Shown: positions 2,731-20,845, counted from the stretch's first letter. The stretch: DNA of 20,845 nt from a virus (IMGVR_UViG_3300031675_000032:1-20845), one strand, 5' to 3'. Notes: generated by a model not told the origin, from the letters alone. Numbers and translations are program-made.

Positions 2731-4323
2731 TTACAGCATACCGACAGGCATAGGTTCGTCGTATTCGTCATACGGTCCGTCATCAGGTCTTGAACCGTCA
2801 CCTATGTTTTGATTTACTACTGTAAATATATCATCTTCAAATGTACTAATGTAACTAATCATTCTACATGCTGTCATCATACTCATAACTAAGTCATCTG
2901 ATTCACCAGGCTGTCCTGCAAAACTATTACCACGTGCTACAAAGTTTTTAAGCTCACTTAAAAACGCTTTACTGTAGACTTTTAGTTTGCCTTGCTCTAT
3001 GAAACGTTTAAGTTGTAAACAGCCGTCAATTTTAGTCTTACTGCTTGTATGAAATCCTTTACGTCCACGTTTGCCTTGTACTTTAACAGGATCATGTAAA
3101 AATGTTCCTGGGAATTGTTCTTCGCCTGTATCTCTAATTACAACTAGGGCGGCTTCTCCAATTGTATTGTTCTCTACTGTCCAATACAATTCTTTTGAAC
3201 CATACTGTTTTAATTCTTTTAAAATTTCCATCATAACTCTTATTTGTCCTTCAACAGGAGTTTTGTTATGACACCATTCTGCTACTTGTACCATGCTAGG
3301 TAATTCTACTACTTGTATTGCAGAGTTATCTCCGCCTGTTCCTGCACTAGGATCTAACGACAGCACATACATTTTATCTGCTGTGGGCCTTTTGTACCAA
3401 CGAACTTCTCCTGTCTTGTACAGGGTTGGTGTGTGCGTCATAGTTGCCAAATGCAACGAGTCAATAAGTGTTTCGTTGTATATAATAAATTCACATTCGT
3501 GTTCACGCCTAAAACGTTCTTCACCAATCCTACTCATTTCTTCTGTAGCCCATTCCTCATCTCTATCTGGATGTTGATCCCATGTTGCCATGTAACCTCT
3601 GAATCCATTAATACCTACTTCTTGTTCATTGCCATATTCATCTGTAGTTTTAATTGCTTGATTCCAAATACCAGCAAAGGTATCATCATCACTGTTTGGT
3701 GTACTTGTAACAATACACTTACCGCCTGTTGCTAGTGTAGGTGATAGCGAAGTCCAAAACTCTTTGGCTATTCTAGGTGGCACAAACGCAAACTCATCTA
3801 AGTATACTAATGTTAAGGACATACCACGACCAGTATTTTCAGTTGTTGTACTTGCAACAATTCTACTGCCGTTATCAAACGTTAAACTTGTTTTGTTATA
3901 TTCAACAACACCTGCTCTAATATGATTTGGTATGCTTTCATACGCATATCGTATACGTTGCATAATTTCTTGAGCGCCAGCCGCCTTATGTGCCGCTACT
4001 AGTATTGTACTGTCTGGCTTGAACATTGCAAACCATAGTAAGTAACCTGCCGCCACAGTGGTTTTACCCATCTGTCTGCCTAGCATGTTAATACTATAAC
4101 GATGTGCATTGTAATTAGCAATTAAATCTTCTTGATAGTCGAATGGGTTGAACTTAATACCACCTTTTGTAGGGTGTTGTATCTTCACAAAGTTCTTCAT
4201 GAAGTGCATTGGTCCTGTGTTAGAATCGCAACATGCTTGGAACTCCCTTAACATCTCAGGATCATAAGGAATCTTCGAATATGCTTGTTTAACTAACTCT
4301 GTATTTACTGTACCTTTTGGCAT
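2731..4323 (-). CDS. 17: gp17-like terminase large subunit (packaging ATPase and nuclease)
   Basis: This motor cuts concatemeric DNA and pumps it through the portal into the prohead. At 530 residues it is shorter than T4 gp17 (610). The ATPase has Walker A GRQMGKTT (82-89), Walker B LVYLDEFAF (172-180, with D176 and catalytic E177) and coupling motif TSTPNS (206-211). The RNase H-like nuclease follows, with metal-binding acids at D324 (LSLDPSAG), E384 (WTVENN) and D476/D477 (ESDDLVM). All expected catalytic residues are present, so it should be functional. ATAAATA ends five bases before its ATG. No Shine-Dalgarno site lies in those bases, so its late transcript may be leaderless. In T4, genes 16 and 17 are adjacent; here two unknown genes separate them. 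Confidence 0.97.
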   Translation of the reverse strand: MPKGTVNTELVKQAYSKIPYDPEMLREFQACCDSNTGPMHFMKNFVKIQHPTKGGIKFNPFDYQEDLIANYNAHRYSINMLGRQMGKTTVAAGYLLWFAMFKPDSTILVAAHKAAGAQEIMQRIRYAYESIPNHIRAGVVEYNKTSLTFDNGSRIVASTTTENTGRGMSLTLVYLDEFAFVPPRIAKEFWTSLSPTLATGGKCIVTSTPNSDDDTFAGIWNQAIKTTDEYGNEQEVGINGFRGYMATWDQHPDRDEEWATEEMSRIGEERFRREHECEFIIYNETLIDSLHLATMTHTPTLYKTGEVRWYKRPTADKMYVLSLDPSAGTGGDNSAIQVVELPSMVQVAEWCHNKTPVEGQIRVMMEILKELKQYGSKELYWTVENNTIGEAALVVIRDTGEEQFPGTFLHDPVKVQGKRGRKGFHTSSKTKIDGCLQLKRFIEQGKLKVYSKAFLSELKNFVARGNSFAGQPGESDDLVMSMMTACRMISYISTFEDDIFTVVNQNIGDGSRPDDGPYDEYDEPMPVGML

Positions 4324-4328
4324 ACAGT

Positions 4329-4335
4329 TATTTAT
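4329..4335 (-). promoter_or_regulatory. T4-type late promoter abutting gp17
   Basis: CATAAATA on the minus strand followed by ACTGT and then the gp17 ATG. With the usual T4 late spacing the first transcribed base would be the A of the ATG. Confidence 0.65.
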
Positions 4336-4358
4336 GTGGAATTATAGGTTGAATTTTG

Positions 4359-5477: not shown

Positions 5478-5990
5478 CTAGTTTTCCTTTGCGTTGATAA
5501 TTTTAAGTAGTTCATTTCTGTCTACAACACTACCTTGTGTACCTGAAGTACTACCGGATTGTACATTGTTGTCTAGTCTTCCCTTCTTAATCATTAAATC
5601 AATCTGTTTTAACTTGGAATCTATTTTGCTGTCTTTGGCTTCTAAGGCTGTCTTTAACATTTTAGCCGCACTATCAAAAATACTGCCTGCTTCTCTGTCT
5701 CCAACGTTCATACCTAAGTTCATCAACTGCTGATAACTGTCAACTGCCTGTTGAGCAATGTCGTCCATCTCTGTGTCATGCTCTTCAAGCCCTTTAACAT
5801 TTTGTAATGCATGGTCTATCTTTTCTGCGTTAGTTAATGCTGTTTGTACATCTTCAATATCCACTGCTGTAACTTCAAATTCTGAAATGTCATTCAAGTC
5901 AGGGAGTTTATCTTCAGTATCGCCTATAATTTTATTAGGTTCGTCTGACATTGGGGGTAAATTAAATTCTTCTTCTAGTTTTTTGGTCAT
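5478..5990 (-). CDS. 16: gp16-like terminase small subunit
   Basis: It would recognise phage DNA and stimulate the gp17 ATPase as a ring-shaped oligomer. The 170-residue length matches T4 gp16 (about 164). The layout fits too: an acidic, disordered N terminus with NLPP near the start (residues 10-13), a long central helical segment (about 50-140) that reads as a helical hairpin, and a Ser/Gly/Thr-rich linker before a short final helix. The segment with YQQLMNLGMNV, AAKMLKTALEAKDSKI and LKQIDLMIKKGRL resembles the central coiled-coil of T4-like small terminases. Identification rests on this pattern and on proximity to gp17, since the family is poorly conserved. The late promoter is five bases from the ATG, so its mRNA may be leaderless. 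Confidence 0.65.
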   Translation of the reverse strand: MTKKLEEEFNLPPMSDEPNKIIGDTEDKLPDLNDISEFEVTAVDIEDVQTALTNAEKIDHALQNVKGLEEHDTEMDDIAQQAVDSYQQLMNLGMNVGDREAGSIFDSAAKMLKTALEAKDSKIDSKLKQIDLMIKKGRLDNNVQSGSTSGTQGSVVDRNELLKIINAKEN

Positions 5991-5995
5991 ACTGC

Positions 5996-6003
5996 TATTT
6001 ATA
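5996..6003 (-). promoter_or_regulatory. Full-consensus late promoter abutting the gp16-like gene
   Basis: TATAAATA on the minus strand matches the T4 late consensus at all eight positions. GCAGT and then ATG follow. The predicted start of transcription is the ATG itself. Confidence 0.7.
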
Positions 6004-6008
6004 CTATG

Positions 6009-7058
6009 TTACAAGTACTTTGTAATGTTATATGGTATAGATACATAGGGTAAGTCTACTACTTGACGTATCTGATTGAGAAACTCTGGTCTTAAAGGAT
6101 GATCCAATTGGTCAACTACGTCTTCTTCTGCAAAATTATCAAATGTTCCCCAATCGTCCATTCTACTTATAGTACATTGTGCATCATAACGTGCTGTTAG
6201 TTTAACAAAATTAACAACATCATGTGCATTTGCTTTTTGACACACAAATCTAAAGTGTACATCAGCGCCTTCTGGCTTGTTCTCATGCATCCAGTCTAAA
6301 TTTTCTATAAGTTTTTCAAAGTTACCCGGTCTTCTTACTACTTCGTATACTTCTTTACTGCCTGCATCTATACTAATTTTAAATTCGCTTATATTAGGAA
6401 GTATTTTACTATCTGGTAATTGCTTACTCATTAATAATCCGTTTGTGAACAATGTAAGAGTGTGATTATGATTAGGAATCCAGTCTGTAACAAACGGTCT
6501 CATTATGTTACTTGCTAAAGGATCGCCATTTCCAGTTAATGTAATGTGTGTACGTTCTTTAAATCTGCGTAATAGACTAATTGTATGCTTGGCATACTCT
6601 ACTTGCTGTTGATAAGTGTCGCCTTCTGTGTGTAATATCATTTCTGGTCTACAACTTGGACATGCAAGGTTACAACTTTCATCTACATTAACATATATAC
6701 TATAAAATTCTTGTCCTTTGTTGTTTATGTGATGTAAATCATGTTCCATTATTCTGCAATGCTCTACAGCACACCATGTAAACTTTTTATCTTCTACATC
6801 TTTTTGTAATTCTTTTGCTAGTGGATTTGACCATACATCTTCTAATTCATAACAGTCCAATATATTACATATAACAAATGGCAAATATAATTCACAGTTA
6901 TCAATGAAGCATTCGCCCTTTGTTGTGATATTTAAACTACGATGTGGTATTGTACAACTGTTAGTAATAGTGTGTTTAAGTTCATTGTTACGTTTTGCCA
7001 TTGGCATTAGTCCTCTTGTTGGACTTTGTAACAATTTATAGTCTATCAGTGTCGACAT
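6009..7058 (-). CDS. Radical SAM protein with an N-terminal SPASM-like cysteine region
   Basis: A 349-residue protein. CNLACPSC (129-136) is a CxxxCxxC site for a SAM-cleaving 4Fe-4S cluster. TLTGNGDP (about residues 173-180) resembles the SAM-binding GGE strand, and later strands (LFTNGLLM, FKISIDAG) follow the radical SAM barrel. Upstream, cysteines 35, 50, 55, 64, 69, 96 and 101 sit in a pattern like a SPASM/twitch domain: a first Cys, G-E-C, a strand, N-I-L, then VWSNPLAKEL. In known SPASM proteins that domain normally follows the barrel. SPASM-type enzymes usually modify peptides or proteins or activate sulfatases; the substrate here is unknown. The start lies within the end of a 41-codon gene. 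The product would be cytoplasmic and oxygen-sensitive. It ends six bases before the gp16-like late promoter. Confidence 0.85.
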   Translation of the reverse strand: MSTLIDYKLLQSPTRGLMPMAKRNNELKHTITNSCTIPHRSLNITTKGECFIDNCELYLPFVICNILDCYELEDVWSNPLAKELQKDVEDKKFTWCAVEHCRIMEHDLHHINNKGQEFYSIYVNVDESCNLACPSCRPEMILHTEGDTYQQQVEYAKHTISLLRRFKERTHITLTGNGDPLASNIMRPFVTDWIPNHNHTLTLFTNGLLMSKQLPDSKILPNISEFKISIDAGSKEVYEVVRRPGNFEKLIENLDWMHENKPEGADVHFRFVCQKANAHDVVNFVKLTARYDAQCTISRMDDWGTFDNFAEEDVVDQLDHPLRPEFLNQIRQVVDLPYVSIPYNITKYL

Positions 7059-9868: not shown

Positions 9869-10657
9869 CTATTGCTTTCTAATGTATGGAACTTCAGCAC
9901 CAAAATTCATTTCTTTGAACTTAGAATTAAAGAAATGTACCCCAGTAGGCAAATCTAATAAATTTCTGTGTAGGTCTACACTAAAAACTGCTCTATGTTC
10001 TGAAGACTCGTTGTATGCACTATGTATCCATTGATTATTAAACCCAAAAGTTTTTGTCCAGTCAGTTTCTTCATTGCAAACTTCAAAATATAACTCACCT
10101 TCTGGTACATACAAAGGAACATGTATTCTCATGTAGCCACCTTTTCTATTTTCTATACCAGTATGTCTTTTTATAACAGAGTCTGCTCTAAGTATAGAAT
10201 AACTTGCAATAGGGCATTCTTCTAAAGTCCATCTATCTAATAATTTTCTTGCTGTTGGTATTTTTGGATTGTCTACTGTGAAATCAAAATGTGTTTCTCT
10301 ATCTTCAGTAAACCAATCTGGTCTGCCATCTAAGCCATACCGTAAATTGTTAGCCATCCATGAATCTAACCCATGTTCGTTTTCTGCTACAAGACGTTGT
10401 GCGTCTGTTATAGTATAGTTACGTTGGTCTAATACTGCTTTGTATGATTCATCTCTGTCTAATACTTGTTGTATCTTTTCATGTGGTGTACCTTCTACAT
10501 CGGCAACCATATCTTCCCAAAGTCCTTCTCTGAAAGAGTCTAAGTAATCATAGATATCATTCAGTGCTTGAGTAGAACCTGGCCCGTCTTTATGCCATAC
10601 CTTTTGAAAGGCAGAGGAAAGTTTTTCTTCTTTTGTAAATTCTGAGTTTAGCTTCAT
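9869..10657 (-). CDS. Aspartyl/asparaginyl beta-hydroxylase-like Fe(II)/2-oxoglutarate oxygenase
   Basis: A 262-residue protein whose C-terminal half carries the signature of the Asp/Asn hydroxylase family. SVIKRHTGIEN (residues 160-170) supplies the HxG iron site at H165. MRIHVPLYVPEG is the conserved R-x-H strand. WIHSAYNESSEHRAVFSVDL supplies the second iron ligand H212 and R222 for 2-oxoglutarate. The H-to-R distance of ten residues equals that in human AspH. As in that family, no carboxylate iron ligand is present. Residues 1-120 are mostly helical and not recognised. A late promoter lies six bases before the ATG. It sits between sheath and tube genes, where T4 has no such enzyme. Substrate unknown: a virion or host protein, or a small molecule. 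Confidence 0.8.
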   Translation of the reverse strand: MKLNSEFTKEEKLSSAFQKVWHKDGPGSTQALNDIYDYLDSFREGLWEDMVADVEGTPHEKIQQVLDRDESYKAVLDQRNYTITDAQRLVAENEHGLDSWMANNLRYGLDGRPDWFTEDRETHFDFTVDNPKIPTARKLLDRWTLEECPIASYSILRADSVIKRHTGIENRKGGYMRIHVPLYVPEGELYFEVCNEETDWTKTFGFNNQWIHSAYNESSEHRAVFSVDLHRNLLDLPTGVHFFNSKFKEMNFGAEVPYIRKQ

Positions 10658-10663
10658 AACAAG

Positions 10664-10670
10664 TATTTAT
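10664..10670 (-). promoter_or_regulatory. T4-type late promoter of the hydroxylase-like gene
   Basis: CATAAATACTTGTT on the minus strand runs directly into the ATG at 10657, a spacer of six bases. No Shine-Dalgarno site is possible on a transcript started here. Confidence 0.6.
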
Positions 10671-10676
10671 GCAGTC

Positions 10677-10726: not shown

Positions 10727-13513
10727 TTAACTACCGGATGATCCCAAAGTGTTTTGGATTCTAATCGGAATGTATATAAACTCAACTGCTTTGACAGGCT
10801 GTATAGCAATGTCAATGTAAAGTTCATTTCTATCAATTCTAGCAGATGTGTTATTTGTTCCATCACAAACTGTAACGAAGTCAAATAAACCTCTTTGAAT
10901 AACTAAGTTACTCAATAAACCATCAACTACATCTTTAGCATTTTGTCTAGTTACTGCATCATTTGGTTCAAACAAGAACGGCTTAACGATATCGTCAAGT
11001 CTTTCTCTTATGTACACAATAAGTCTAGCAACGTTCACTCTATCCAATGCACTTGCAGTTGGGTTAAGTGTTTTTTGTCCAAATACTGCAAGTCCACGTC
11101 CTGGGAATTGAGCAATTGGATTAATTTTGTTACCATATAATGTATCTCTTTGACCTTCGTTGAGTGTTACCGGAGTATACTCGCCTGTTGTCGGATCTAC
11201 ATAACCTACTGATGTTGCATTTTGAACAAGACCTCTTTGGAAGCCTGCTGGTGCAAACCAAGGGAAAGCAACCTGGTCATTGTATGCAAGAGTTCTTAAA
11301 GCAACATGACTTGAAGGAACAACAACGTTGGTTCCGTCTAAGTTAGTTGTTAAAGCACTTGGGTAATAAACAGCCGCGTATGGTGAAGCAGAAACAAGTC
11401 CGTCCTCTCCATTCTCACTAGCATTGTTGGCGTTAGTGGCCCAGTCTTTTGTGCTTGTAGCATCTGCTTTAAGTCTAAATGGTGAGTCAGCAATAACAAA
11501 GGCAGTATTTCTTCTGTCTGTGCTTAATGCTACCATTTCGTCTAGCAATTCAGGGAAGCCAGGAGCGGCAATAATGTTATATGCATTAACTTCACTTCTA
11601 ATGTCATCATTAGAAACGATTGCAGATTGCATTTTAGTTTTAACTAAATTGTGTACTGCTTTTCTTAATCCAAACATGTTACCGTCTGTTTTGTTTCCTG
11701 AAGCATCAACCCATACGTTACCAATATTAGTAGAAGCTGGAGTATAATTAATCTTATACTCTTTAACATTACCTACTGAAGCACGTTTGTTATAGCCCCA
11801 GATACCACTTGGGTATGCTGTTGCCAATGGTGCGTCTGCATCTAATGAACTTGCTGAAGACTGTCTAAAGTCTCCAAACACTATTCCTTCTGCTGTATGC
11901 TGATCACTTCCGTCTACTGAAACCCAGGCTGTACCTGACCACTTGTAGAATTTAGGGAAGTTTTCTGTATCGTCTGAATCCAACCATGCGTCGCCGGCTA
12001 CTAGAGCAGTTCCGTCTGATTGTACTGTTGGTGCTGTTGCAGTTACACTTACGTCTTTTGTGAAAGTAACCCAAGCACTACCGTTGTGTTCTAATAAGTC
12101 AACGTTAGCCTTAGCCACTGTCGCATTGTACCAGTAAGTACCTTCTGCTAAAGTTCCTGTCATAGTAGTTTTTGATGCTACATACGATAGGGCTCCGTAG
12201 TTAGAGTATGTTTTGTTTAATGCAACCGCCTGTGTTCCTAGTCCAATTGAACTTGGTCCAAAGTCTGCGTGGTTACTTTGTACAACTATATCTCTACCTG
12301 TACTAGAAGTTAATATAATATTATTATTACTTCCTATTGAAGCAAGAACTTCAGTTACACTAGCCGCACTAAGAGCCGCGTTGATGTCATAAACTGCATC
12401 TTCGGCTGTTGATGTTGCTGGAGTAGTACTGATTGTACCTGCCAATGTTACAACTGTAGTTGTGCCATTGTAAACAATGTCTAAACTGCTGTTGCCGGAA
12501 ACGTCTACGCCACTAGCGAACGCTGATGAACCAGTCGCTACTAATGATGTGTTTCCATTATGTCTTTTCAGGTCATACTCTGCTTCTGTTCCGCCATGTA
12601 CTGCAATAAGGTCGCCAACTTTAACGTTTGCCGTTCCTATTGTAGTAAGTGCTGTATCAGTGTTTGCATATATTGATGTTGCTACTGCACTAAAAGTCTT
12701 ACTTGAAGAACTGTAAAGTTTAGTAGATAAACTTGCACCTGTGTTAGGTGTTGAAGTTTGAACAAATATGTCTCCAGCTGAAAGAGCCGTAGTATTGTCT
12801 GATCTTAGACTTGGTACTGATAAATGAGTACTAAATTGGAAGTCACCTGATGTTGCTGAACCCCAACTAGTAGTACCTACTTGGTACCAGTCGTTTGAAT
12901 ATTTTTCGTAGTATTTAACTTGGGTAGAAGTTCCACCAGCCGCTGTATTTGCCACAACTGCGTAATCGCCGTTCTGTCCAAATGCTTGGCTTGGTCCACC
13001 TGTTCCTGAGTTTATACTTGTTGAATCTACAACGGATACTGTTTTCTTAACCCATGCTGTGCCTGACCATTCTCTTAACCCGAAAGTTGAAGATGCTGTG
13101 TCAAACCAGTATGATCCATCTGCAATAGCGCCTGTTGGAGCCTTGCTGGATGCCGCTAATTCACCTAAGTCTATATCTGCTCTCAGAACGTATGCTCTGT
13201 TTGCCAAACCTAAGAAACTGTGGGCCGCTAGTAAACCGTATTCATTGAGATCATAACCATTCAACTGATTACTACCACTTGCATAGAAACTTGGGTTTCC
13301 AAACTGTTGTAGTAGCTCACGTTGACTAGTCATTAGTTTTAATTTACCTGCGTTTGCTTTAGTTGTAAATGCCGCTGTACTTGTTCCATCTGGTCCAGTT
13401 TTATCCTGGGCCGTAGCGATGATTAACAAAGGTACAGTTCCAGCACCCGCCGCCGCATAAAACGATTCGTCGGATACACTAATGCTAACTCCTGGTGATA
13501 CTAATTCTGCCAT
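10727..13513 (-). CDS. 18: gp18-like contractile tail sheath protein
   Basis: It forms the contracting outer tail cylinder. At 928 residues it is much longer than T4 gp18 (659). The N terminus, AELVSPGVSISVSDESF, is the usual beta-strand opening used for inter-subunit weaving. The C-terminal third (about 600-925) holds the conserved core with GRGLAVFGQKTL (806-817), NVARLIVYIRERLDDIVKPFLFEPND (827-852) and a final IDIAIQPVKAVEFIYIPIRI strand pair. The extra length is a surface insertion from about 120 to 590, rich in Ser, Thr, Ala and Gly, with degenerate repeats. The start has AGGAG seven bases upstream and a late promoter about 40 bases upstream. The gene is monocistronic or nearly so, with a terminator just after it, as suits a highly expressed protein. 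Confidence 0.95.
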   Translation of the reverse strand: MAELVSPGVSISVSDESFYAAAGAGTVPLLIIATAQDKTGPDGTSTAAFTTKANAGKLKLMTSQRELLQQFGNPSFYASGSNQLNGYDLNEYGLLAAHSFLGLANRAYVLRADIDLGELAASSKAPTGAIADGSYWFDTASSTFGLREWSGTAWVKKTVSVVDSTSINSGTGGPSQAFGQNGDYAVVANTAAGGTSTQVKYYEKYSNDWYQVGTTSWGSATSGDFQFSTHLSVPSLRSDNTTALSAGDIFVQTSTPNTGASLSTKLYSSSSKTFSAVATSIYANTDTALTTIGTANVKVGDLIAVHGGTEAEYDLKRHNGNTSLVATGSSAFASGVDVSGNSSLDIVYNGTTTVVTLAGTISTTPATSTAEDAVYDINAALSAASVTEVLASIGSNNNIILTSSTGRDIVVQSNHADFGPSSIGLGTQAVALNKTYSNYGALSYVASKTTMTGTLAEGTYWYNATVAKANVDLLEHNGSAWVTFTKDVSVTATAPTVQSDGTALVAGDAWLDSDDTENFPKFYKWSGTAWVSVDGSDQHTAEGIVFGDFRQSSASSLDADAPLATAYPSGIWGYNKRASVGNVKEYKINYTPASTNIGNVWVDASGNKTDGNMFGLRKAVHNLVKTKMQSAIVSNDDIRSEVNAYNIIAAPGFPELLDEMVALSTDRRNTAFVIADSPFRLKADATSTKDWATNANNASENGEDGLVSASPYAAVYYPSALTTNLDGTNVVVPSSHVALRTLAYNDQVAFPWFAPAGFQRGLVQNATSVGYVDPTTGEYTPVTLNEGQRDTLYGNKINPIAQFPGRGLAVFGQKTLNPTASALDRVNVARLIVYIRERLDDIVKPFLFEPNDAVTRQNAKDVVDGLLSNLVIQRGLFDFVTVCDGTNNTSARIDRNELYIDIAIQPVKAVEFIYIPIRIQNTLGSSGS
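11915..13120 (-). repeat. Degenerate W-x-G-x-WV repeats in the sheath insertion
   Basis: Within gp18 residues 132-533, units of about 25-30 residues recur with the pattern G-x-hydrophobic-hydrophobic, a variable Ser/Thr-rich turn, an aromatic, then NG or SG and WV. The clearest are 132-157 (GSYWFDT to WSGTAWVKK), 457-485 (GTYWYNA to HNGSAWVTF) and 507-533 (GDAWLDS to WSGTAWVSV). Weaker copies lie at 181-212, 247-277 and 299-327. They are protein-level repeats; the DNA is diverged. They may be small exposed beta domains on the tail surface. Confidence 0.6.
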
Positions 13514-13550: not shown

Positions 13551-13557
13551 TATTTAT
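13551..13557 (-). promoter_or_regulatory. T4-type late promoter of gp18
   Basis: GATAAATA on the minus strand, 37 bases before the gp18 ATG. The leader is AT-rich and carries AGGAG. Confidence 0.7.
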
Positions 13558-13575
13558 CATAAAAAGTGTAAAGCA

Positions 13576-13626: not shown

Positions 13627-13641
13627 AGACCGGTTTGGTCT
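13627..13641 (-). terminator. Terminator of the neck-oxygenase-kinase operon
   Basis: On the minus strand AGACC, loop AAACC, GGTCT form a perfect five-pair stem overlapping the kinase stop codon. UUAUUUAU follows. The stem is short, so efficiency may be modest. Confidence 0.5.
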
Positions 13642-14296
13642 ATAATGCTTGTATTTTGGGGGTAAAGATATTATTATGTATTAAAGTTACTTGTTCTTGC
13701 AAATCTTCTAGTGTTCCTGTGTTAGATATCTCATAATCAAAATCATATCCTGCCCACTTCCATTCACTTGCATGTACACTTGCATAACGTGTTTCCATTG
13801 TGTGCTTTGCTGGAACACTACCTTTATTGGCGTGTGATGCCACTTCATACCATTCAGGCATGACGTTTCTTATAACATGAATAACTATACCGTCAAGTTG
13901 TTTAACTAAGTCTAGTTCATTTTTAAATCTAGCGTCACTTACAACAACTAGTTGGTCTTCTTGTGATCTCTTTCTAATACGATATTCTAAACTGTCTAAC
14001 CAAATGTCTTGATTAAAATGTGTACGCATTATTTCTGTACCTAACAACTGAAGTGCTAGTCTTGGAGTAAAATTATCTATGTTTAATTTTTTAGTCCAGT
14101 AAAGGTCTGCTGTTTCTCTAAAGTCTCTACTTGCTAATGTATCGCCTTCTAACATGTGTCTATCCCAACCAAACACACTAGAGCATAAATCTTTTAAAGG
14201 TGCCGCAAAACTATCCTTTACTGCTCCTCGTTCTACGAACATCTCGGCAACTGTATCTTTGCCACTTCCCATAAATCCTGTTATTCCTATTATCAT
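13640..14296 (-). CDS. Deoxynucleoside monophosphate kinase-like protein (gp1-like)
   Basis: A 218-residue P-loop kinase. GITGFMGSGKDTVAEMF (residues 4-20) contains the Walker A loop with the GSGKDT form typical of T4 gp1-type dNMP kinases. VVVSDARFKNELDLV (about 116-130) matches the later strand-turn in which D and R contact nucleotide, and IRKRSQEDQ precedes it. Such enzymes phosphorylate dNMPs, sometimes hydroxymethylated or otherwise modified ones, to dNDPs for phage DNA synthesis. T4 gp1 has 241 residues. An AGGA lies 11 bases before the ATG. The gene follows the fourth oxygenase by 23 bases and ends in a terminator. In T4 a dNMP kinase is an early gene, so a place in a late operon is unusual. 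Related small P-loop kinases cannot be excluded. Confidence 0.75.
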   Translation of the reverse strand: MIIGITGFMGSGKDTVAEMFVERGAVKDSFAAPLKDLCSSVFGWDRHMLEGDTLASRDFRETADLYWTKKLNIDNFTPRLALQLLGTEIMRTHFNQDIWLDSLEYRIRKRSQEDQLVVVSDARFKNELDLVKQLDGIVIHVIRNVMPEWYEVASHANKGSVPAKHTMETRYASVHASEWKWAGYDFDYEISNTGTLEDLQEQVTLIHNNIFTPKIQAL

Positions 14297-14319: not shown

Positions 14320-15207
14320 TTACTTAAAGAAATTTCCGGAAGAAACCAATTCTTCAATTCTTCTAAAATTCATTCCTTCACCTGAATGTACTCTAAACGA
14401 TACCCTAGGAGTATTATTAGTTAATACTCTATGCCATTTGGCTAAGTTAATAAAAAACGGATTATGCATTCCTTTACGTTCAGCACTTATAGGTATATGG
14501 TCTCTCCACATCTCAGAGTCTGCAATATAGCTCGTAGAGGCTGAAACTTTCAATCCATCTTGAGCGAGAACTTCCGGGAGACCTTGTGGAGTTATTTTGT
14601 AATCTGGATTATTGTTAAGCCATGTGTTTACAAATTTAGATTCTACTTCGTTGTACTTGTTATTCAACTCATCAGTAGCATGTGTAAATTGTAGGATACT
14701 CTCGTCTACATCTCCTAATAGTCTAAAATTACAACATACCGATGCTCTTACTTGGTGCAGTATTTGTGTATTAAAATCTACAGGAATATCATTTGGAATT
14801 TTTACAGGACCTTCTGTATGCCACTTTGATGTTTTATTAAAACACAAAATAGTTATAGGTGGTAACTTACCACCTGGTAGTTCCCAAAGGTCATCTAAAT
14901 AGTCTTCATGAAATGTGTCTCTAGCCCAATCATACACTTCACGTTTTAGTTTGCTATTCTTAATAAGTGCTGTACCATTAAAATGTATATTGTCATCTTC
15001 CCGTCCGTTTAGGCTGTGTATATATTTGTCATATTCATTCGCCGGTTGGGATTGCCAATTATTCCATGCTAGTTTATTTGTTTTAATTATAAAAGGTTTA
15101 AGGTGGCTTTTGTTATCATTAATTAATTCGTAATCTTCATCAGAAAAGATGTCGTCTACTGTCCAGGGTAGTTCCATTGTTGGTAAATCTATATAACAGT
15201 TTTTCAT
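14320..15207 (-). CDS. 2-oxoglutarate/Fe(II) oxygenase-like paralogue 1
   Basis: A 295-residue member of a four-gene tandem family. The putative iron triad is H130-x-E132 (KWHTEG) and H259 (AKWHRVLTNN), with R268 or R272 in TPRVSFRVHS as 2-oxoglutarate ligand. VCCNFRLLGDVDES (157-170) is a further block shared by the family. The N terminus, IDLPTMELPWTVDDIFSDEDYELI, recurs in the paralogues as a start module. It is the closest relative of paralogue 2, with stretches that are near-identical in DNA. ATGA start-stop overlap with the upstream gene and AGAGG eight bases upstream support coupled translation. HxE instead of HxD is allowed in several oxygenase families. Assignment rests on spacing of these residues, so a related cupin-like fold with another activity is possible. 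Confidence 0.65.
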   Translation of the reverse strand: MKNCYIDLPTMELPWTVDDIFSDEDYELINDNKSHLKPFIIKTNKLAWNNWQSQPANEYDKYIHSLNGREDDNIHFNGTALIKNSKLKREVYDWARDTFHEDYLDDLWELPGGKLPPITILCFNKTSKWHTEGPVKIPNDIPVDFNTQILHQVRASVCCNFRLLGDVDESILQFTHATDELNNKYNEVESKFVNTWLNNNPDYKITPQGLPEVLAQDGLKVSASTSYIADSEMWRDHIPISAERKGMHNPFFINLAKWHRVLTNNTPRVSFRVHSGEGMNFRRIEELVSSGNFFK

Positions 15208-16121
15208 TTAAAAAACCTCTGTGTTTCTACAAGTTCTTCTATTTTTTTAAAAGTCATTCTTTCGTGTGAATGTACTCTAAATGTTACTCTAGGAGTATTG
15301 TTGGTTAATACTCTATGCCACTTTGCTACATTAACAAAATACGGATTATGCATTCCTACATGTTCTGTAATTTTATTAAGATGGTCAGCCCATTGATCCA
15401 TATCTGATATGTAACTACTAACAGGGCCTACTCGTATGTTATTTACAATAGCTAGGTTTGGTGGACGTTTTATTAACCTGGATAAAAATCTTGCATAGTC
15501 TGTAAAAAATTTATCTCTAGCCAGTTCATGTGTACGTTCCAATTCGTCTGAACCATTTGCAAATTCTATTTTACTGTTGTCCGTATCTCCCAATAGTTTA
15601 AAGTTACACACAGCAGGTGGTCGTAATTTATTAATCCTATTAAAGCCATCAACATCTCCACCAGATGGAGCCTCAAAATCTGGAGTTTTCATTGGTCCTT
15701 CACAATGCCATCCTGAAGTTTTATTAAAACATAAAACTGTTACAGGAACTACTTTGCTGGCGCCGTTGGGACCGGTCCATAGATTATCTATATAGTCTGC
15801 ATGAAATGTATCGTTAAGCCATTCCCACATTTGGCGTTTTAATATTTGGTCATGTACTACTGCTGTGCCATTGAAATGCATTTCTCCAGCAAGTATCGTA
15901 TCTATGTCTTGCTGTACAAGGTCTCCAGTATGCTTTCCAGCCTGAAGTAAATCATATCGTTGCTTGCCGGCATTAGTCCACGTAATGTTTTTTGATTGTA
16001 TTGAATAGTTCTTTGACGCACCATCTTTTGCATGTATCAACTCTATATCTTCAGCTGAAAGAATATCTTCTGCCGTCCATGGTAGTGTTAAATTAGGTAC
16101 ATCTATGAAACATCCATTCAT
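15204..16121 (-). CDS. 2-oxoglutarate/Fe(II) oxygenase-like paralogue 2
   Basis: A 305-residue protein with H139-x-E141 (GWHCEG), H269 (AKWHRVLTNN) and R278/R282 (TPRVTFRVHS). The shared VCNFKLLGDTDNS block is at about 171-183. It has two insertions relative to the others: one after the N-terminal module (about 52-75) and a Gly/Pro-rich one after the HxE motif (150-168). These would lie near the active-site mouth and may change specificity. It overlaps both neighbours by ATGA, so all members should be made from one mRNA. The N terminus reads FIDVPNLTLPWTAEDILS, as in paralogue 1. Confidence 0.65.
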   Translation of the reverse strand: MNGCFIDVPNLTLPWTAEDILSAEDIELIHAKDGASKNYSIQSKNITWTNAGKQRYDLLQAGKHTGDLVQQDIDTILAGEMHFNGTAVVHDQILKRQMWEWLNDTFHADYIDNLWTGPNGASKVVPVTVLCFNKTSGWHCEGPMKTPDFEAPSGGDVDGFNRINKLRPPAVCNFKLLGDTDNSKIEFANGSDELERTHELARDKFFTDYARFLSRLIKRPPNLAIVNNIRVGPVSSYISDMDQWADHLNKITEHVGMHNPYFVNVAKWHRVLTNNTPRVTFRVHSHERMTFKKIEELVETQRFFK

Positions 16122-17047
16122 TTTAAAAATTTACCTTCATCTATCAAACTTTGAAAATGTTCAAACGTTTGATTTTTGTGTCCCATAAATCTTAAACTAA
16201 CTCTCGGTGCTACTGTTTTAATATTAACCCTGTGCCAAGAAGATAAATTTAATAAAAATGGACTGTGGTATCCTTCTATTTTTCCTGCAGGTTTTAAACG
16301 CTGTAACATGTCATTACTAGATGTTTGGTCAATAGTTTCTGAAACACTAATGCCATTATCACTCCACATAGTCACAGGCTCTTTGCCGTCAACCTTCCAT
16401 TGGTCTGTGAAACGTTTATTTAATGCATCATACTCTGCTGTAAATATTTCATCTGGTTCTGCAACTTCAATAGAGCAATCATCTGCATCGCCTAATAGCC
16501 TAAAGTTACATACAGCACTTGTACGTGATGTTTCAATTCTATTGTGTAATAAACTTTCGTCTGCAACTTTTCTCCAACCTGATAACCCCTCTGTGTGGAA
16601 TGTACTTGGTCCACTAAACCCAATAAGTGTAATAGGAACAATTTTCTTTCCGCCCAAACTCCAAATGTCTGCTAGATAGTCCTCATGGAATGTATCTTGT
16701 GCAAACTCTCTGAGTGTGTACATTAGTTTTTTATTTGTTATGACTCCTATACTTGTTGGAGGTCTATAGCCTTTCATTTTTTCGCCTACAACAAAATCTT
16801 CATCTTTGTCTAACACAATATCTGTGCCGGCAATCTTATGTTCGTTTGGGCTATACATCCAACTCATGTTTTCTGTTTGGGCCATTGTCCAACCAAACAT
16901 GTCTGGGTGCTCTACGATTTCTACCTTGTCATTAAATTTTTCTCTGTCGTAAATTAAATCGTAATCATCTTCCGTAAAAATATCATCTACTGTAATAGGT
17001 AATTCCAAATCTGGAAAAGAACAAAGGTGATTTCTTACGTTATGCAT
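16118..17047 (-). CDS. 2-oxoglutarate/Fe(II) oxygenase-like paralogue 3
   Basis: A 309-residue protein with H151-x-E153 (TFHTEG, where Phe replaces the usual Trp), H272 (SSWHRVNIKT) and R282/R286 (APRVSLRFMG). The block SAVCNFRLLGDADDCS (177-192) matches the paralogues. It shares HEDYLADIW with paralogue 1. It is more diverged in the middle, and the C-terminal motif is followed by HKNQTFEHFQSL instead of MNFRRIEEL. Its ATG overlaps the stop of paralogue 4 by eight bases, and its own stop overlaps paralogue 2 by ATGA. Confidence 0.65.
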   Translation of the reverse strand: MHNVRNHLCSFPDLELPITVDDIFTEDDYDLIYDREKFNDKVEIVEHPDMFGWTMAQTENMSWMYSPNEHKIAGTDIVLDKDEDFVVGEKMKGYRPPTSIGVITNKKLMYTLREFAQDTFHEDYLADIWSLGGKKIVPITLIGFSGPSTFHTEGLSGWRKVADESLLHNRIETSRTSAVCNFRLLGDADDCSIEVAEPDEIFTAEYDALNKRFTDQWKVDGKEPVTMWSDNGISVSETIDQTSSNDMLQRLKPAGKIEGYHSPFLLNLSSWHRVNIKTVAPRVSLRFMGHKNQTFEHFQSLIDEGKFLK

Positions 17048-17837
17048 TTATTAATTTACCCTCTTTATGTAAGTTAGCCCAATGACTCATTGGTAGTTCT
17101 TCATTACACATTAATCTAAAACTGATCCTCGGTTCTTTAGTCCTACTATTTTCAACACGGTGCCAAGGATTAGGGTGGGTATCTTGATGTCCTAAGTTTA
17201 AGAGGAACGGACAATCGTAGTTTATTTTTCTATCTATTTCTGTAACATTATCATCAATAGTCATTATTGCATCACTATAAAAATTACTTCTAATGTTTTT
17301 ATCTTTACACCATTGGACATCTTGCCCAGGTGTTCTCAAATTGTATAACTGCTCGACAGTATTTAACACATACTCACTTGGTTGCCCAAATACAATATCA
17401 CTGTCCTCATCTGCTTTTAATTTAATATTAAGTACAGCACTAGTTCTTGCAAATCCTTCTTCCAATTTTGTCCAAGGATAAAATCCTTCGTAATGCCATC
17501 TGCTAGATTCACTTGCTTTAGTCATTACTAATGTTGCTGGAAATGATTTATTAGGGCGTTTGTAAAATGCTTTTGTAAAAAAGTTATCTGGGAAAACATC
17601 TTTCGCCCATTCTTGCATTAAACGTGATATGCTTTTATCTACTAAGAAACCTATCTGTAAGTTAGGTGCTTCTTCATTTGTGGTCCATGCTATCTTTTGT
17701 GCATTTTTAAAAACATATTCTGAGGGGTTGTGTCCATCTTGTAAGGCAAAATCTGAATCAAGTAAAATATCTTCTGCTTTAAACGGTAAAGGAAACTTTA
17801 AAAGTTCTGGTATGTCAAAATATGTGTTCCCAGACAT
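17040..17837 (-). CDS. 2-oxoglutarate/Fe(II) oxygenase-like paralogue 4 (most divergent)
   Basis: A 265-residue protein, the shortest and most diverged of the four but with every putative ligand kept: H115-x-E117 (RWHYEG), H226 (NPWHRVENSR) and R237/R241 (EPRISFRLMC). The block SAVLNIKLKADEDSD (133-147) aligns with VCNFRLLGD. It lacks about 30 residues between the N-terminal module and the core that the others have. The ATG overlaps the stop of the gp13-like gene as TAATG. A good Shine-Dalgarno at normal spacing is absent (AGGA only two bases away), so translation probably depends on coupling to the neck gene. Confidence 0.65.
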   Translation of the reverse strand: MSGNTYFDIPELLKFPLPFKAEDILLDSDFALQDGHNPSEYVFKNAQKIAWTTNEEAPNLQIGFLVDKSISRLMQEWAKDVFPDNFFTKAFYKRPNKSFPATLVMTKASESSRWHYEGFYPWTKLEEGFARTSAVLNIKLKADEDSDIVFGQPSEYVLNTVEQLYNLRTPGQDVQWCKDKNIRSNFYSDAIMTIDDNVTEIDRKINYDCPFLLNLGHQDTHPNPWHRVENSRTKEPRISFRLMCNEELPMSHWANLHKEGKLINA

Positions 17838-18604
17838 TATCCTATAACAAAGCCTAGTGGTGAGTTGCCTTCTTCCATGTTGTGTATTGATGCTATCAAT
17901 TGATCCATCTCTGTTAATGCTTCTGCCTTTAAGGCATCGCCATTAAGAGTTACTGCTCCACCTGGTCCTGGTAATCCACCTGGGAATTTGCTTCTTGCTT
18001 CACCTAACATCATTTTACTCTGTGCTAATGCAAAATTAGAAAGCCAATCTGCGGCATACACATCTTTAATTAAAACACTCTCTGGTATAAAGTTATTAAC
18101 TCCAACTGCAATGTCTTCTGCGTGTGCCACGTTTCTTAGAATAGTTAATTCTTTTGTGTTGCGATTAAATGTAAAATTATACTCACTACCAAATATACGA
18201 CCAATAGTTTCCTTGTATTGTGCAAATGCATCAAATACTGCAAGTCCACCTATTTGTCCTGCTTGTAGCATGTACATGTTATTAAATGCAACATCAAATG
18301 GATCAAAGTTAGTACCGCCACCACTGTTAGTTCCGATGCCTCTTCTATATAAACGCTTAACGTCTATAACTTCATCAGGGAGTGTATACTTTGTTACACC
18401 GTCCTGTGTTTGTACAAAAATAACTGCTTCTTCTACACTACCGCTACTCAACTGTCTATACTTTTGTAAAGATTTGTTGATTGCTATATCGTAATGCTCT
18501 CTATCCAACTCAACATCTACCATTCCGTCAGCCAGTCTTAACTGAATTTCCTTAATGATTTCGTCTCTGTTGTTGTAGCCTATTTGGTCTATTCTCTGTG
18601 CCAT
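17837..18604 (-). CDS. gp13-like neck protein
   Basis: A 255-residue protein from the ATG at 18604. GTG at 18619 is rejected because it would lie upstream of the late start site. The N-terminal half resembles T4-like gp13: RDEIIKEIQLRLADGMVDVELDREHYDIAINKSLQKYRQLSSGSVEEAVIFV, then a YTLPDEVIDVKRLYRRG strand-turn. Later parts show VFDAFAQYKETIGRIFG, a long helix (DWLSNFALAQSKMMLGEARSKF) and a Gly/Pro-rich GGLPGPGG. gp13 joins the portal to the tail after packaging. Confusion with gp14 or another connector protein is possible. A late promoter abuts the ATG. It is the first gene of the operon with the oxygenases. Confidence 0.55.
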   Translation of the reverse strand: MAQRIDQIGYNNRDEIIKEIQLRLADGMVDVELDREHYDIAINKSLQKYRQLSSGSVEEAVIFVQTQDGVTKYTLPDEVIDVKRLYRRGIGTNSGGGTNFDPFDVAFNNMYMLQAGQIGGLAVFDAFAQYKETIGRIFGSEYNFTFNRNTKELTILRNVAHAEDIAVGVNNFIPESVLIKDVYAADWLSNFALAQSKMMLGEARSKFPGGLPGPGGAVTLNGDALKAEALTEMDQLIASIHNMEEGNSPLGFVIG

Positions 18605-18609
18605 ACTAC

Positions 18610-18616
18610 TATTTAT
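18610..18616 (-). promoter_or_regulatory. T4-type late promoter abutting the gp13-like gene
   Basis: GATAAATA on the minus strand followed by GTAGT and then ATG. The same five-base spacing occurs at gp17 and the gp16-like gene. It is the only late promoter seen ahead of the four oxygenase genes. Confidence 0.65.
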
Positions 18617-18628
18617 CACTTTCCAGTG

Positions 18629-19786
18629 TTAGAAGGCTCTAAGTATGATTGTAGTATCGTTTATTCTTCCGTTTAGTTTGGTTGGTGTTGTTTTTACTTC
18701 GTCAAATGCTTTAGCAAAACGTGTTTTAGCATTTCCGGTCCAGTTGCTAATCTGTTCTTTTGGCTTTCTAAGTGTCTTTTGCATAGAAGAGCCTGCATCA
18801 AAGCCTATTATAGTTGTGCCTTTAACCATTAATCCGGCACCTTCTCTTGCCATATTACGTGGGTCTTTGTTCTCTGCGTGGTACACACCTATCTTCCGGG
18901 ACTTTGTATTGTATAACCAAAGTTCGTTAGCATACACGACGTCTGTGGGCGATATAGATGCTATTCCTAAGTCTCCATCGGCTACTTGGAACTTTAACTT
19001 CTTAATTATGCTTTCTTTACTTCTGCTTCTAGGCTTACGTTGTTTTCTGTTTGCTTTACCAGTAAGTATGATTGCATCGCAGGCATTACTAATTTTTTGA
19101 AAAAAGCCTAAATAATCCTTCTTCATTTTCTTATCCATAAAACTGTATGCTTCATTTAATTGTTCACATGTTCCATCGATACTTTCTTGTGCTTCTGCAA
19201 GTAAAGGTATGTATTGGTCTTGAATCATTTTAGCATGAGCAGGTTTAATTACTCCAGACTGATATACTTTCATATCTTTATCTGGATCAAACTTTTTAAG
19301 GTCAATCTTATCTGCTTCTATGAAGTTATCCATAACATCGTCCCAGTCTCCACATAAGTCAGTAATTTGTTCTAACATTCTTTCTTGTATAGACACTTTT
19401 GGTTTCACAACTTCTTTAACTTTGACTTCTTCCATTATCTCATTACCTTTCTCAATCCATTCTGGTATTCGTTTTTCATAAAATGCTACATACCGTTCAG
19501 GCATGTAACCAACTCTGGACCACATGTATCCATATTTTGCACTACTGCTAAATCTCCAATCCGGGTTTTTAAGTATTATCTTAATATCAGCCTTATCCCA
19601 ACCACTGCCGTCTTTAACCCATTTCCTAAATTGTAGTACTTGGTCTTTAGTGGCTATCTCAGAATGTACAAAGTAATCCATTTCACGGAATGCGTTTTCT
19701 TGTTCGTCAGGATCTGTTACCAGTATGAATTTCTTCCAATCTGGTTGTGTAGTGACGTAAACTGTTCTCTGTTTTTTTCTAGCCAT
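18629..19786 (-). CDS. Unrecognised 385-residue basic protein
   Basis: Not recognised. The ATG at 19786 is chosen; TTG at 19810 would precede the GGAG at 19801-19804 that serves this gene, although its 14-base spacing is long. Residues 1-100 hold many aromatics (QPDWKKF, YGYMWSRVGYMPERYVAFYEKRIPEW) and look like a small folded domain. The middle is a helical, charged region (about 110-250). From about residue 250 come basic stretches (RKQRKPRSRSKESIIKKLKF), then a beta-rich end (ELWLYNTKSRKIGVYHAE, GLMVKGTTIIGFD). It could bind nucleic acid. Unlike its late neighbours it has a sigma70-type promoter. It ends 13 bases before the late promoter of the gp13-like gene. Confidence 0.75.
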   Translation of the reverse strand: MARKKQRTVYVTTQPDWKKFILVTDPDEQENAFREMDYFVHSEIATKDQVLQFRKWVKDGSGWDKADIKIILKNPDWRFSSSAKYGYMWSRVGYMPERYVAFYEKRIPEWIEKGNEIMEEVKVKEVVKPKVSIQERMLEQITDLCGDWDDVMDNFIEADKIDLKKFDPDKDMKVYQSGVIKPAHAKMIQDQYIPLLAEAQESIDGTCEQLNEAYSFMDKKMKKDYLGFFQKISNACDAIILTGKANRKQRKPRSRSKESIIKKLKFQVADGDLGIASISPTDVVYANELWLYNTKSRKIGVYHAENKDPRNMAREGAGLMVKGTTIIGFDAGSSMQKTLRKPKEQISNWTGNAKTRFAKAFDEVKTTPTKLNGRINDTTIILRAF

Positions 19787-19821
19787 AACTTTTATTTTTA
19801 CTCCAAGCAATATTCGTAGTT

Positions 19822-19870: not shown

Positions 19871-19883
19871 AGGTTTAAAACCT
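19871..19883 (-). terminator. Possible weak terminator after the FabZ-like gene
   Basis: On the minus strand AGGTT, loop TTA, AACCT form a five-pair stem overlapping the stop codon, followed by TTTTG. It separates the FabZ-like gene from the next promoter. The stem is short and the U-tract brief. Confidence 0.35.
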
Positions 19884-20304
19884 ATAGTTTTTTAGCAGTA
19901 AGCCCAATACTTGCTGAAGCAACACGTTTTTCATTACAAAAAACTTCACAATCATAAAATATGTTATTCATTTTACGTTTTTTAAGTGTCGCATTAAGTG
20001 TTAATACATCTCCAGGGAATACTGGATTACGGAATTTACAACCATCTACCCTAGTAACAAAAGTTACATAGTCACTATGCTGTACTGCACCAACGTCTTG
20101 CTCTGCAAGATATAATGCATGTATTCCGGCGCATTGATTCATTCCTTCTATAAGATAAACTCCGGGCCATATCTTAACATGTGGGAAATGTCCTTCTAGG
20201 ACTGGATGGTCTGCTTGGACTTCGTAAGTTGCTACAATAGAATGGTCATCTATAATCTTGTGACTGTCTATTAATGCTATTGGGTATCTGTGTGGTAGTT
20301 CCAT
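19882..20304 (-). CDS. FabZ-like 3-hydroxyacyl-ACP dehydratase (hot-dog fold)
   Basis: A 140-residue protein matching bacterial FabZ in length (about 140-150) and motif order. MELPHRYPIALIDS is the FabZ opening (LPHRYPFLLVDR type). HPVLEGHFPHVKIWPGVYLIEGMNQCAG (33-60) holds the catalytic pair H39 and E53, 14 residues apart as in FabZ, and the PGV turn. FRNPVFPGDVLTLNATLKKRK is the conserved substrate-tunnel strand pair. FabZ dehydrates 3-hydroxyacyl-ACP in fatty acid elongation. Both catalytic residues are intact, so it is probably active on an acyl-thioester; FabA or another hot-dog dehydratase is the alternative. No clear Shine-Dalgarno is seen before the ATG. It follows the partial gene at the right edge by 20 bases, suggesting one operon. 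Confidence 0.85.
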   Translation of the reverse strand: MELPHRYPIALIDSHKIIDDHSIVATYEVQADHPVLEGHFPHVKIWPGVYLIEGMNQCAGIHALYLAEQDVGAVQHSDYVTFVTRVDGCKFRNPVFPGDVLTLNATLKKRKMNNIFYDCEVFCNEKRVASASIGLTAKKL

Positions 20305-20324
20305 ACAAGTAGTTATGTAAGGAA

Positions 20325-20845
20325 TTATAGTGAGTTGCGGTATTCTTGAACAGTTAGTATAGTAGGCACATCATCTTTCCATAATGTTACAGACTCTACT
20401 CTATTGTGTTCCTTGATATTCATTACTTTATCATAATATGCCATATGGTCATTGTACATATCTTGCCTTAACAAGTTACTGCCCAATATTGGATTCCTAG
20501 TAGGATGTATTTTCTTCCTAAGGAATGCCTTATGGGTAACCTGTGCAAGATGAAATGCTTTCATCAATGTTACTCCATGTTTGTTTGTATATATAACCAT
20601 GTCTTCTTGACCAGGGCCAAATATTCCGGATCTTTGTAGGGTTCTGTATTCTTCTTTAGACTTTTCTGTGTACCCATAAGCGGCTGGATCTGCCTGTATG
20701 GCACTTTCAGTTTTTGTACCATCCATTTTTTCACCTTTACCTATGGACCTACGAAGTTTATATATAACAGGATAGATAGCATCCAGTTTATTATAATCTA
20801 AATCTGTTAATTTATTGTATGAATCTCTTAAACCTTCATAAGTAT
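20325..20845 (-). CDS. Unrecognised gene, 5' end outside window
   Basis: The reading frame stays open from its stop at 20325-20327 to the window edge, about 172 codons, with no stop. An internal ATG at 20726 with AGGTGA in front could start a 133-residue form. The 39 further codons upstream are protein-like (KLDAIYPVIYKLRRSIGKGEK), so a longer gene is favoured. The product is polar and basic with many Tyr and Lys; I recognise no domain. It lies 20 bases before the FabZ-like gene and may share its transcript. Confidence 0.65.
   Translation of the reverse strand, partial: TYEGLRDSYNKLTDLDYNKLDAIYPVIYKLRRSIGKGEKMDGTKTESAIQADPAAYGYTEKSKEEYRTLQRSGIFGPGQEDMVIYTNKHGVTLMKAFHLAQVTHKAFLRKKIHPTRNPILGSNLLRQDMYNDHMAYYDKVMNIKEHNRVESVTLWKDDVPTILTVQEYRNSL

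Follow-up and report, generated by a model that had tools for sequence, protein, structure and literature searches.

Four oxygenase-like paralogues form a clade-specific, putatively late-expressed array between a neck gene and a nucleotide kinase gene in uncultured phages

Why would a phage keep four oxygenase-like genes in a row within its late region, and on what would they act? The question is raised by a stretch of 20,845 nucleotides of viral DNA (IMGVR_UViG_3300031675_000032:1-20845; hereafter the window), an IMG/VR fragment whose genes are also encoded, at 100% protein identity, by the longer contig L004. Between the genes for a gp13-like neck protein and a deoxynucleoside monophosphate (dNMP) kinase lie four consecutive genes, here called A to D (Table 1), for which we present computational results on fold, ligand residues, synteny, promoters, types of orthologue and selection. 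Open reading frames (ORFs), junctions and mutual similarity all agree with the original prediction of four consecutive oxygenase-like genes with overlapping starts and stops: gp13 and A meet at TAATG, A and B overlap by 8 bases, and B/C and C/D share ATGA. Judged from their sequences, the four are true paralogues, with a likeness far above chance that is highest for C-D (E=2e-85), followed by B-D (4e-43), B-C (3e-34), A-B (8e-19), A-C (5e-10) and, weakest, A-D (2e-9). The predicted motif order, WHxEG or FHTEG followed by WHRV and PR(V/I)(S/T)(F/L)R, holds in all four genes. The CNF(R/K)LLGD block, said to be shared as well, is exact in B, C and D only, while A reads LNIKLKAD.

The fold, the metal-binding triad and a basic residue for 2-oxoglutarate (2OG) support that A-D belong to the Fe(II)/2OG oxygenase superfamily. 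AlphaFold2 (AF2) models built from family alignments have the strand order of a double-stranded beta-helix (DSBH) for both D (pLDDT 88.3, pTM 0.87) and A (pLDDT 78.8, pTM 0.79); a fold of another kind would have spoken against the prediction. In the D model, the HxE motif comes after strand 118-123, His259 lies within strand 258-262 and Arg268 starts strand 268-275, which is the arrangement of known 2OG oxygenases. H130, E132, N160, H259 and R268 (D numbering) are invariant in 57/57 full-length members of the family (alignment, n=58), and the Arg nine residues past the distal His is likely the 2OG ligand. Foldseek searches of the PDB with the D and A models returned KDM7A, WelO5, PHF2, FIH, NO66, HalB, HygX and KanJ, and almost all matches were DSBH/cupin enzymes; among viral models, proteins of ~200 amino acids (aa) from uncultured phages and cyanophages matched with probability 1.00. 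Strand order, fold matches and the invariant H-x-E...H...R pattern together support the predicted fold and ligand set.

Profile libraries miss this family. A-D and the family profile gave zero matches against Pfam, NCBIfam, PHROG and PDB sequences; A-D plus all 29 members of one alignment (A2) matched no 2OG family in Pfam, even at E<=10; and A-D had no match above gathering score to PhyH, the 2OG-FeII_Oxy families or Asp_Arg_Hydrox, the families with which the original prediction had proposed to compare them. In PHROGs, including the cyanophage groups phrog_61, phrog_81 and phrog_274, there was nothing above chance for A-D or for the family's M, O or E types (one 29-row family alignment was too diverse to use for scanning). 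Among 84,980 genomes of bacteria and archaea, two scans found no relative, with short exact peptide patterns that distant cellular kin could escape. The family is new within a known superfamily, and its arrangement is also new; in a literature search, limited to open-access papers, no array of this kind came up.

Comparison with the fold neighbours narrows the expected chemistry. JmjC-type hydroxylases and demethylases (KDM7A, FIH, NO66) match A-D in the DSBH fold, and the HxE..H facial triad is as in KDM4-type enzymes. However, JmjC enzymes carry the 2OG-binding Lys on an earlier strand, whereas the array family has its invariant Arg after the distal His, and no match to the JmjC profile was found in A-D or the family. 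WelO5-type halogenases and the aminoglycoside tailoring oxygenases KanJ and HygX likewise match in fold and provide a precedent for small-molecule tailoring. The invariant Glu speaks against a WelO5-type halogenase, because such halogenases have a small residue in place of the Asp/Glu ligand, WelO5 itself having no carboxylate ligand. With Glu in the iron triad, hydroxylation or desaturation is expected and halogenation is unlikely.

Searches were seeded both from the family itself and, separately, from gp13. The survey of related phage genomes that had been proposed found the family in ~45 IMG/VR contigs (our count from the search tables; some are near-identical). In all contigs that include the flanks, an array of 1-5 genes separates gp13 from the dNMP kinase gene, and three different parts of the family used as queries all led to this interval. 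Two copies lie away from the array site (L027:2147-2962, upstream, and L011:9686-10876, antisense and upstream of gp13); the contigs are fragments, so that further family copies in these genomes may have escaped the count. Every contig in which gp13 is at least 86% identical and downstream sequence is present has the array. By contrast, the sister clade (gp13 71-78% identical) has it in 0/24 testable junctions, with a gp13-kinase gap of 0-4 bp in 22 of these, and the same site is empty of oxygenases in Pseudomonas phage Cassandra. By synteny, the array is a clade-specific insertion that was later expanded. The phage is not close to cultured marine T4-like phages: its nearest cultured relatives by TerL (58% identity) and gp13 (52%) belong to the PA5oct group (Arenbergviridae), which are T4-type jumbo phages of Pseudomonas. 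These phages (PA5oct, Cassandra) have the same gp13-dNMPK-gp18-tube order but no oxygenase at the gp13/dNMPK junction. Judging by its kin, the clade is apparently of marine origin.

The array would be transcribed late, from the gp13 promoter. In the window, NATAAATA, a T4-type late-promoter element, has 10 sites on the coding strand versus 2 on the other, and 8/10 of the coding-strand sites lie 5-37 nt ahead of a gene start. Exact TATAAATA is not enriched (3 observed vs 2.5 expected); the informative element is the relaxed NATAAATA alone, through its strand and position bias. As the original prediction had it, the only late promoter ahead of the array is that of gp13: NATAAATA precedes gp13, and none is found in the window ahead of A, B, C, D or the kinase gene. 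The element stands at the same gp13 position in nearly all relatives checked, with or without array, and ~30-48 nt ahead of gp18 in all relatives checked. Oxygenase genes of relatives have no NATAAATA ahead of them, except type E in L010, while L006, L007 and L011 have an additional one ahead of the kinase gene. As a separate observation, NATAAATA ends 5-6 nt before the ATG of gp13, gp16, gp17 and an Asp-hydroxylase gene (18604-18617, 5990-6003, 4323-4336 and 10657-10671), a spacing from which nearly leaderless late mRNAs would result.

Within the array, A-D would be translated by coupling via their overlapping gene ends. Across contigs, 31/35 oxygenase-oxygenase junctions overlap. In the window, the unit ends (EGKL, EGKF or TQRFF plus stop) contain purine-rich GAGGG, GAAGG or GAGG 9-13 nt ahead of the next ATG. 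The ribosome-binding site of a unit seems to lie within the preceding one, an arrangement that would ease the exchange of units.

The kinase gene adjoining the array brings up the alternative that A-D oxidise DNA or RNA bases in the manner of TET/JBP, AlkB or TYW5, with the kinase processing the modified nucleotides. DNA-modifying 2OG enzymes exist in some phages, and TET2 and TYW5 are found far down among the Foldseek matches. However, the kinase gene adjoins gp13 in array-less phages too, so that its adjacency carries no signal, and we reject this hint of DNA modification. Moreover, the array is apparently expressed late, together with virion genes, no TET/JBP or AlkB profile matches A-D or the family, and TET/JBP enzymes have been reported absent from jumbo phages (PMC7824862). 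Overall, we consider base oxidation improbable.

The paralogues have evolved as separate types. A maximum-likelihood tree divides the family into about fifteen types. Some arrays have five genes, E-A-B-C-D (L010) and A-B-F-G-H (L008), and others four, A-B-C-D (window), A-B-F-I (L006, L007) and B-F-G-H (L013). Shorter ones are B-F-H (L014), N-O (L035), K-J (L028) and M alone (L042); single-member contigs comprise L039-L042 and L125-L130, and type A is missing from L013/L014. The order of types is fixed across phages although content is mixed. A and B are stable orthologues, with A found in 5 other contigs at 63-91% identity and B, the most conserved paralogue, at 75-94% identity between phages. 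C, D and other types turn over: C, a variable type, is 71% identical to its L010 orthologue, and C and D are only ~70% identical between phages with 95-98% identical gp13 and gp18. Between the window and L010, the ratio of nonsynonymous to synonymous substitution rates (dN/dS) is 0.14 for A, 0.07 for B, 0.27 for C and 0.32 for D; the reference values are 0.035 (gp13) and 0.15 (sheath gene). All of A-D are under purifying selection, which is least tight for C and D. These ratios and the gp13 promoter element agree with the earlier description of a retained array in a late operon.

The same pattern separates the two functions that the original prediction had offered. The separate orthologous types, and the catalytic residues kept strictly in every copy, are in keeping with a set of enzymes that has several targets. 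In an obligate hetero-oligomer, A-D would make up a single enzyme or a structural part of the collar. The tight overlaps and the fixed order speak for such an oligomer, and coupled translation favours stoichiometric expression; however, it is unlikely, because single-copy phages exist and types, A among them, are lost and gained freely, and because a structural subunit would not need the full triad that every copy has. We regard it as very improbable. Still less credible is a drain on 2OG or oxygen that alters host metabolism. Modulation of the 2OG level has been proposed for cyanophage oxygenases (Sullivan et al. 2010, PMC3037559), but one gene would be enough for this, and several diverged paralogues, fixed order, separate constraint and late timing would not be needed.

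A stronger contender, although we judge it to be unlikely, is that each paralogue hydroxylates a residue in one late structural protein such as the sheath, a fibre or an adhesin, independently of the genes upstream. Co-transcription with neck and tail genes, the many protein hydroxylases among the fold neighbours (FIH, NO66, JmjC) and very long virion-type ORFs in a relative (4903 and 1932 aa) are consistent with this idea. Against it, a conserved substrate would have to tolerate changing enzymes, given the identities of C and D relative to gp13 and gp18, and Foldseek is without power to tell substrates apart.

Upstream of gp13, all clade contigs with enough sequence there have an island of genes for a ferredoxin-NADP-reductase-like flavoprotein, 1-3 B12-type radical SAM proteins and a FabZ-like dehydratase; the best, weak matches of the B12 radical SAM proteins are the ladderane-lipid and HpnJ families. 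As seen in L004:3211-7956 and window 19882-20843, it comprises the ferredoxin reductase-like protein, two B12 radical SAM proteins and FabZ. This set is not found in the sister clade, where the same slot has genes for a sugar-nucleotide epimerase/dehydratase, an Asp-hydroxylase-like protein and a B12 radical SAM protein. By gene content, both clades place a small biosynthetic cassette in this stretch of the late region, which speaks for the tailoring of some product of glycan, lipid or peptide type.

Based on these data, the explanation that we favour, with modest confidence, is that A-D are Fe(II)/2OG tailoring hydroxylases of a new family, encoded in a clade-specific late array, with separate targets and a link to the upstream island. 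Each paralogue type would have its own substrate or position: within a constant order, types come, go and are substituted independently of each other, and all of them are catalytically intact. A-D would act as tailoring hydroxylases in a pathway of late modification, in which the upstream flavin reductase, B12-radical-SAM and FabZ enzymes probably take part as well. As to its product, our guess is a group of glycan, lipid or peptide type, modified and carried by the new virion or by the envelope of the host. Several points weigh against this explanation. The Foldseek TM-scores are modest (0.2-0.45), and it is from model topology that the side chains of H, E, H and R are inferred to meet in one pocket. 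The co-occurrence of array and island amounts to one phylogenetic contrast, clade versus sister clade, so that the functional link is weak. Lastly, no cultured phage was found to have the family: tblastn of types A, C, M and E plus one remote type against 50,697 phage records gave no match. A bolder version, which we put forward tentatively and would not bet on, is a modular, combinatorially evolving system, in which single-domain oxygenase units are added, lost or exchanged within one ordered tandem array and each adds a different oxidation to an island-built product, i.e. a virion decoration or an envelope glycolipid.

The closest known parallel is found in marine cyanophages. Their 2OG oxygenases (PF13640/PF13759; phrog_61, phrog_81, phrog_274) are, like the array, DSBH proteins of T4-type phages; a genome has several of them, as many as five, which differ in length (PMC3037559). 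For instance, P-SSM2 has three, PSSM2_104, 105 and 108, close together just before the baseplate gene gp25. However, these are of unrelated subfamilies, ~200 aa long and at a baseplate site, while the array consists of paralogues of ~265-325 aa at the gp13/kinase site and varies in a modular way. P-SSM2 proteins had no significant HMMER or HHalign similarity to the family, and the family hidden Markov model had no match among them, although PSSM2_104 (Q58MQ0) ranks with the viral proteins whose fold best matches a modelled oxygenase. For prolyl-4-hydroxylase-like cyanophage oxygenases a repair role has been suggested (PMC2984593), and a cyanophage secondary-metabolite cluster containing 2OG oxygenases has been proposed (PMC7824862). 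Two further observations concern P-SSM2. PSSM2_104 (L123:14602-15231) is annotated as 'DNA endonuclease V' yet has an HTD...H...R pattern, and phrog_274 and phrog_2297 are also matched by the 2OG-FeII_Oxy_3 protein PSSM2_108; the label is probably wrong for PSSM2_104, phrog_274 and phrog_2297, which would be 2OG oxygenases. A glycosyltransferase-like gene lies in the same block as the three oxygenases (L123:14602-17598).

Other genes of the window and its relatives also deserve mention. The separate oxygenase between the sheath and tube genes matches Asp_Arg_Hydrox at 47 bits, with LpxO/OlsC as nearest named families; such a gene is at the sheath/tube junction in L010, L134, L135 and L138 too, and phage Cassandra has a homing endonuclease there. 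A radical SAM protein is encoded between the gp4-like and gp16-like genes (window 6009-7058), and in relatives an AurF-like di-iron protein lies beside the radical SAM gene or in the same stretch (L013:12076-13146). A contig of the window's phage encodes a protein with a TonB-dependent receptor plug domain, odd in a phage (L120:7131-8795). A 109-kb relative has FecR-like, curlin-repeat and CHASE2-adenylate cyclase proteins near structural genes (L115:1582-6226), and its gene content indicates no clear host or pathway.

Table 1. Features of the window in and around the oxygenase array
Feature	Coordinates	Strand	Remarks
Asp_Arg_Hydrox 2OG oxygenase	9869..10657	-	unrelated to A-D; between sheath and tube genes
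Tail sheath gp18-like	10727..13513	-	homology and synteny with annotated sheath gene of Pseudomonas phage Cassandra
Late-promoter-type element GATAAATA	13551..13558	-	37 nt ahead of sheath gene gp18; next such element past array
Deoxynucleoside monophosphate kinase (DNMK)	13640..14296	-	downstream edge of array insertion
Oxygenase D, 295 aa	14320..15207	-	WHTEG; AF2 model
Oxygenase C, 305 aa	15204..16121	-	WHCEG
Oxygenase B, 309 aa	16118..17047	-	FHTEG, WHRV, R
Oxygenase A, 265 aa	17040..17837	-	HYE motif (WHYEG), WHRV, R
gp13-like neck / head-tail adaptor Ad2 (phrog_211)	17837..18604	-	start probably ATG at 18604 rather than GTG at 18619 of the ORF list
Late-promoter-type element GATAAATA	18610..18617	-	5 nt ahead of gp13 ATG; kept in clade and sister clade
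phrog_11903 protein, unknown function	18629..19810	-	upstream of gp13 in all relatives
FabZ-like 3-hydroxyacyl-ACP (acyl carrier protein) dehydratase	19882..20304	-	part of clade-specific upstream island
B12-type radical SAM protein, C-terminal end	20325..20843	-	full length in L004:5723-7513

Scattered 2OG oxygenases were on record for marine phages by 2010 at the latest, and no role has been established for them. The family described here was missed by profile libraries and is restricted to a single lineage, site and expression class; in the sister clade the site is empty. The late timing narrows the candidate targets to virion, envelope or lysis-stage products, and the natural arrays of 1, 2, 3, 4 and 5 members open a direct way to test what phages oxidise. 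If the system is indeed modular, the content of an array would set a chemical pattern specific to each phage.

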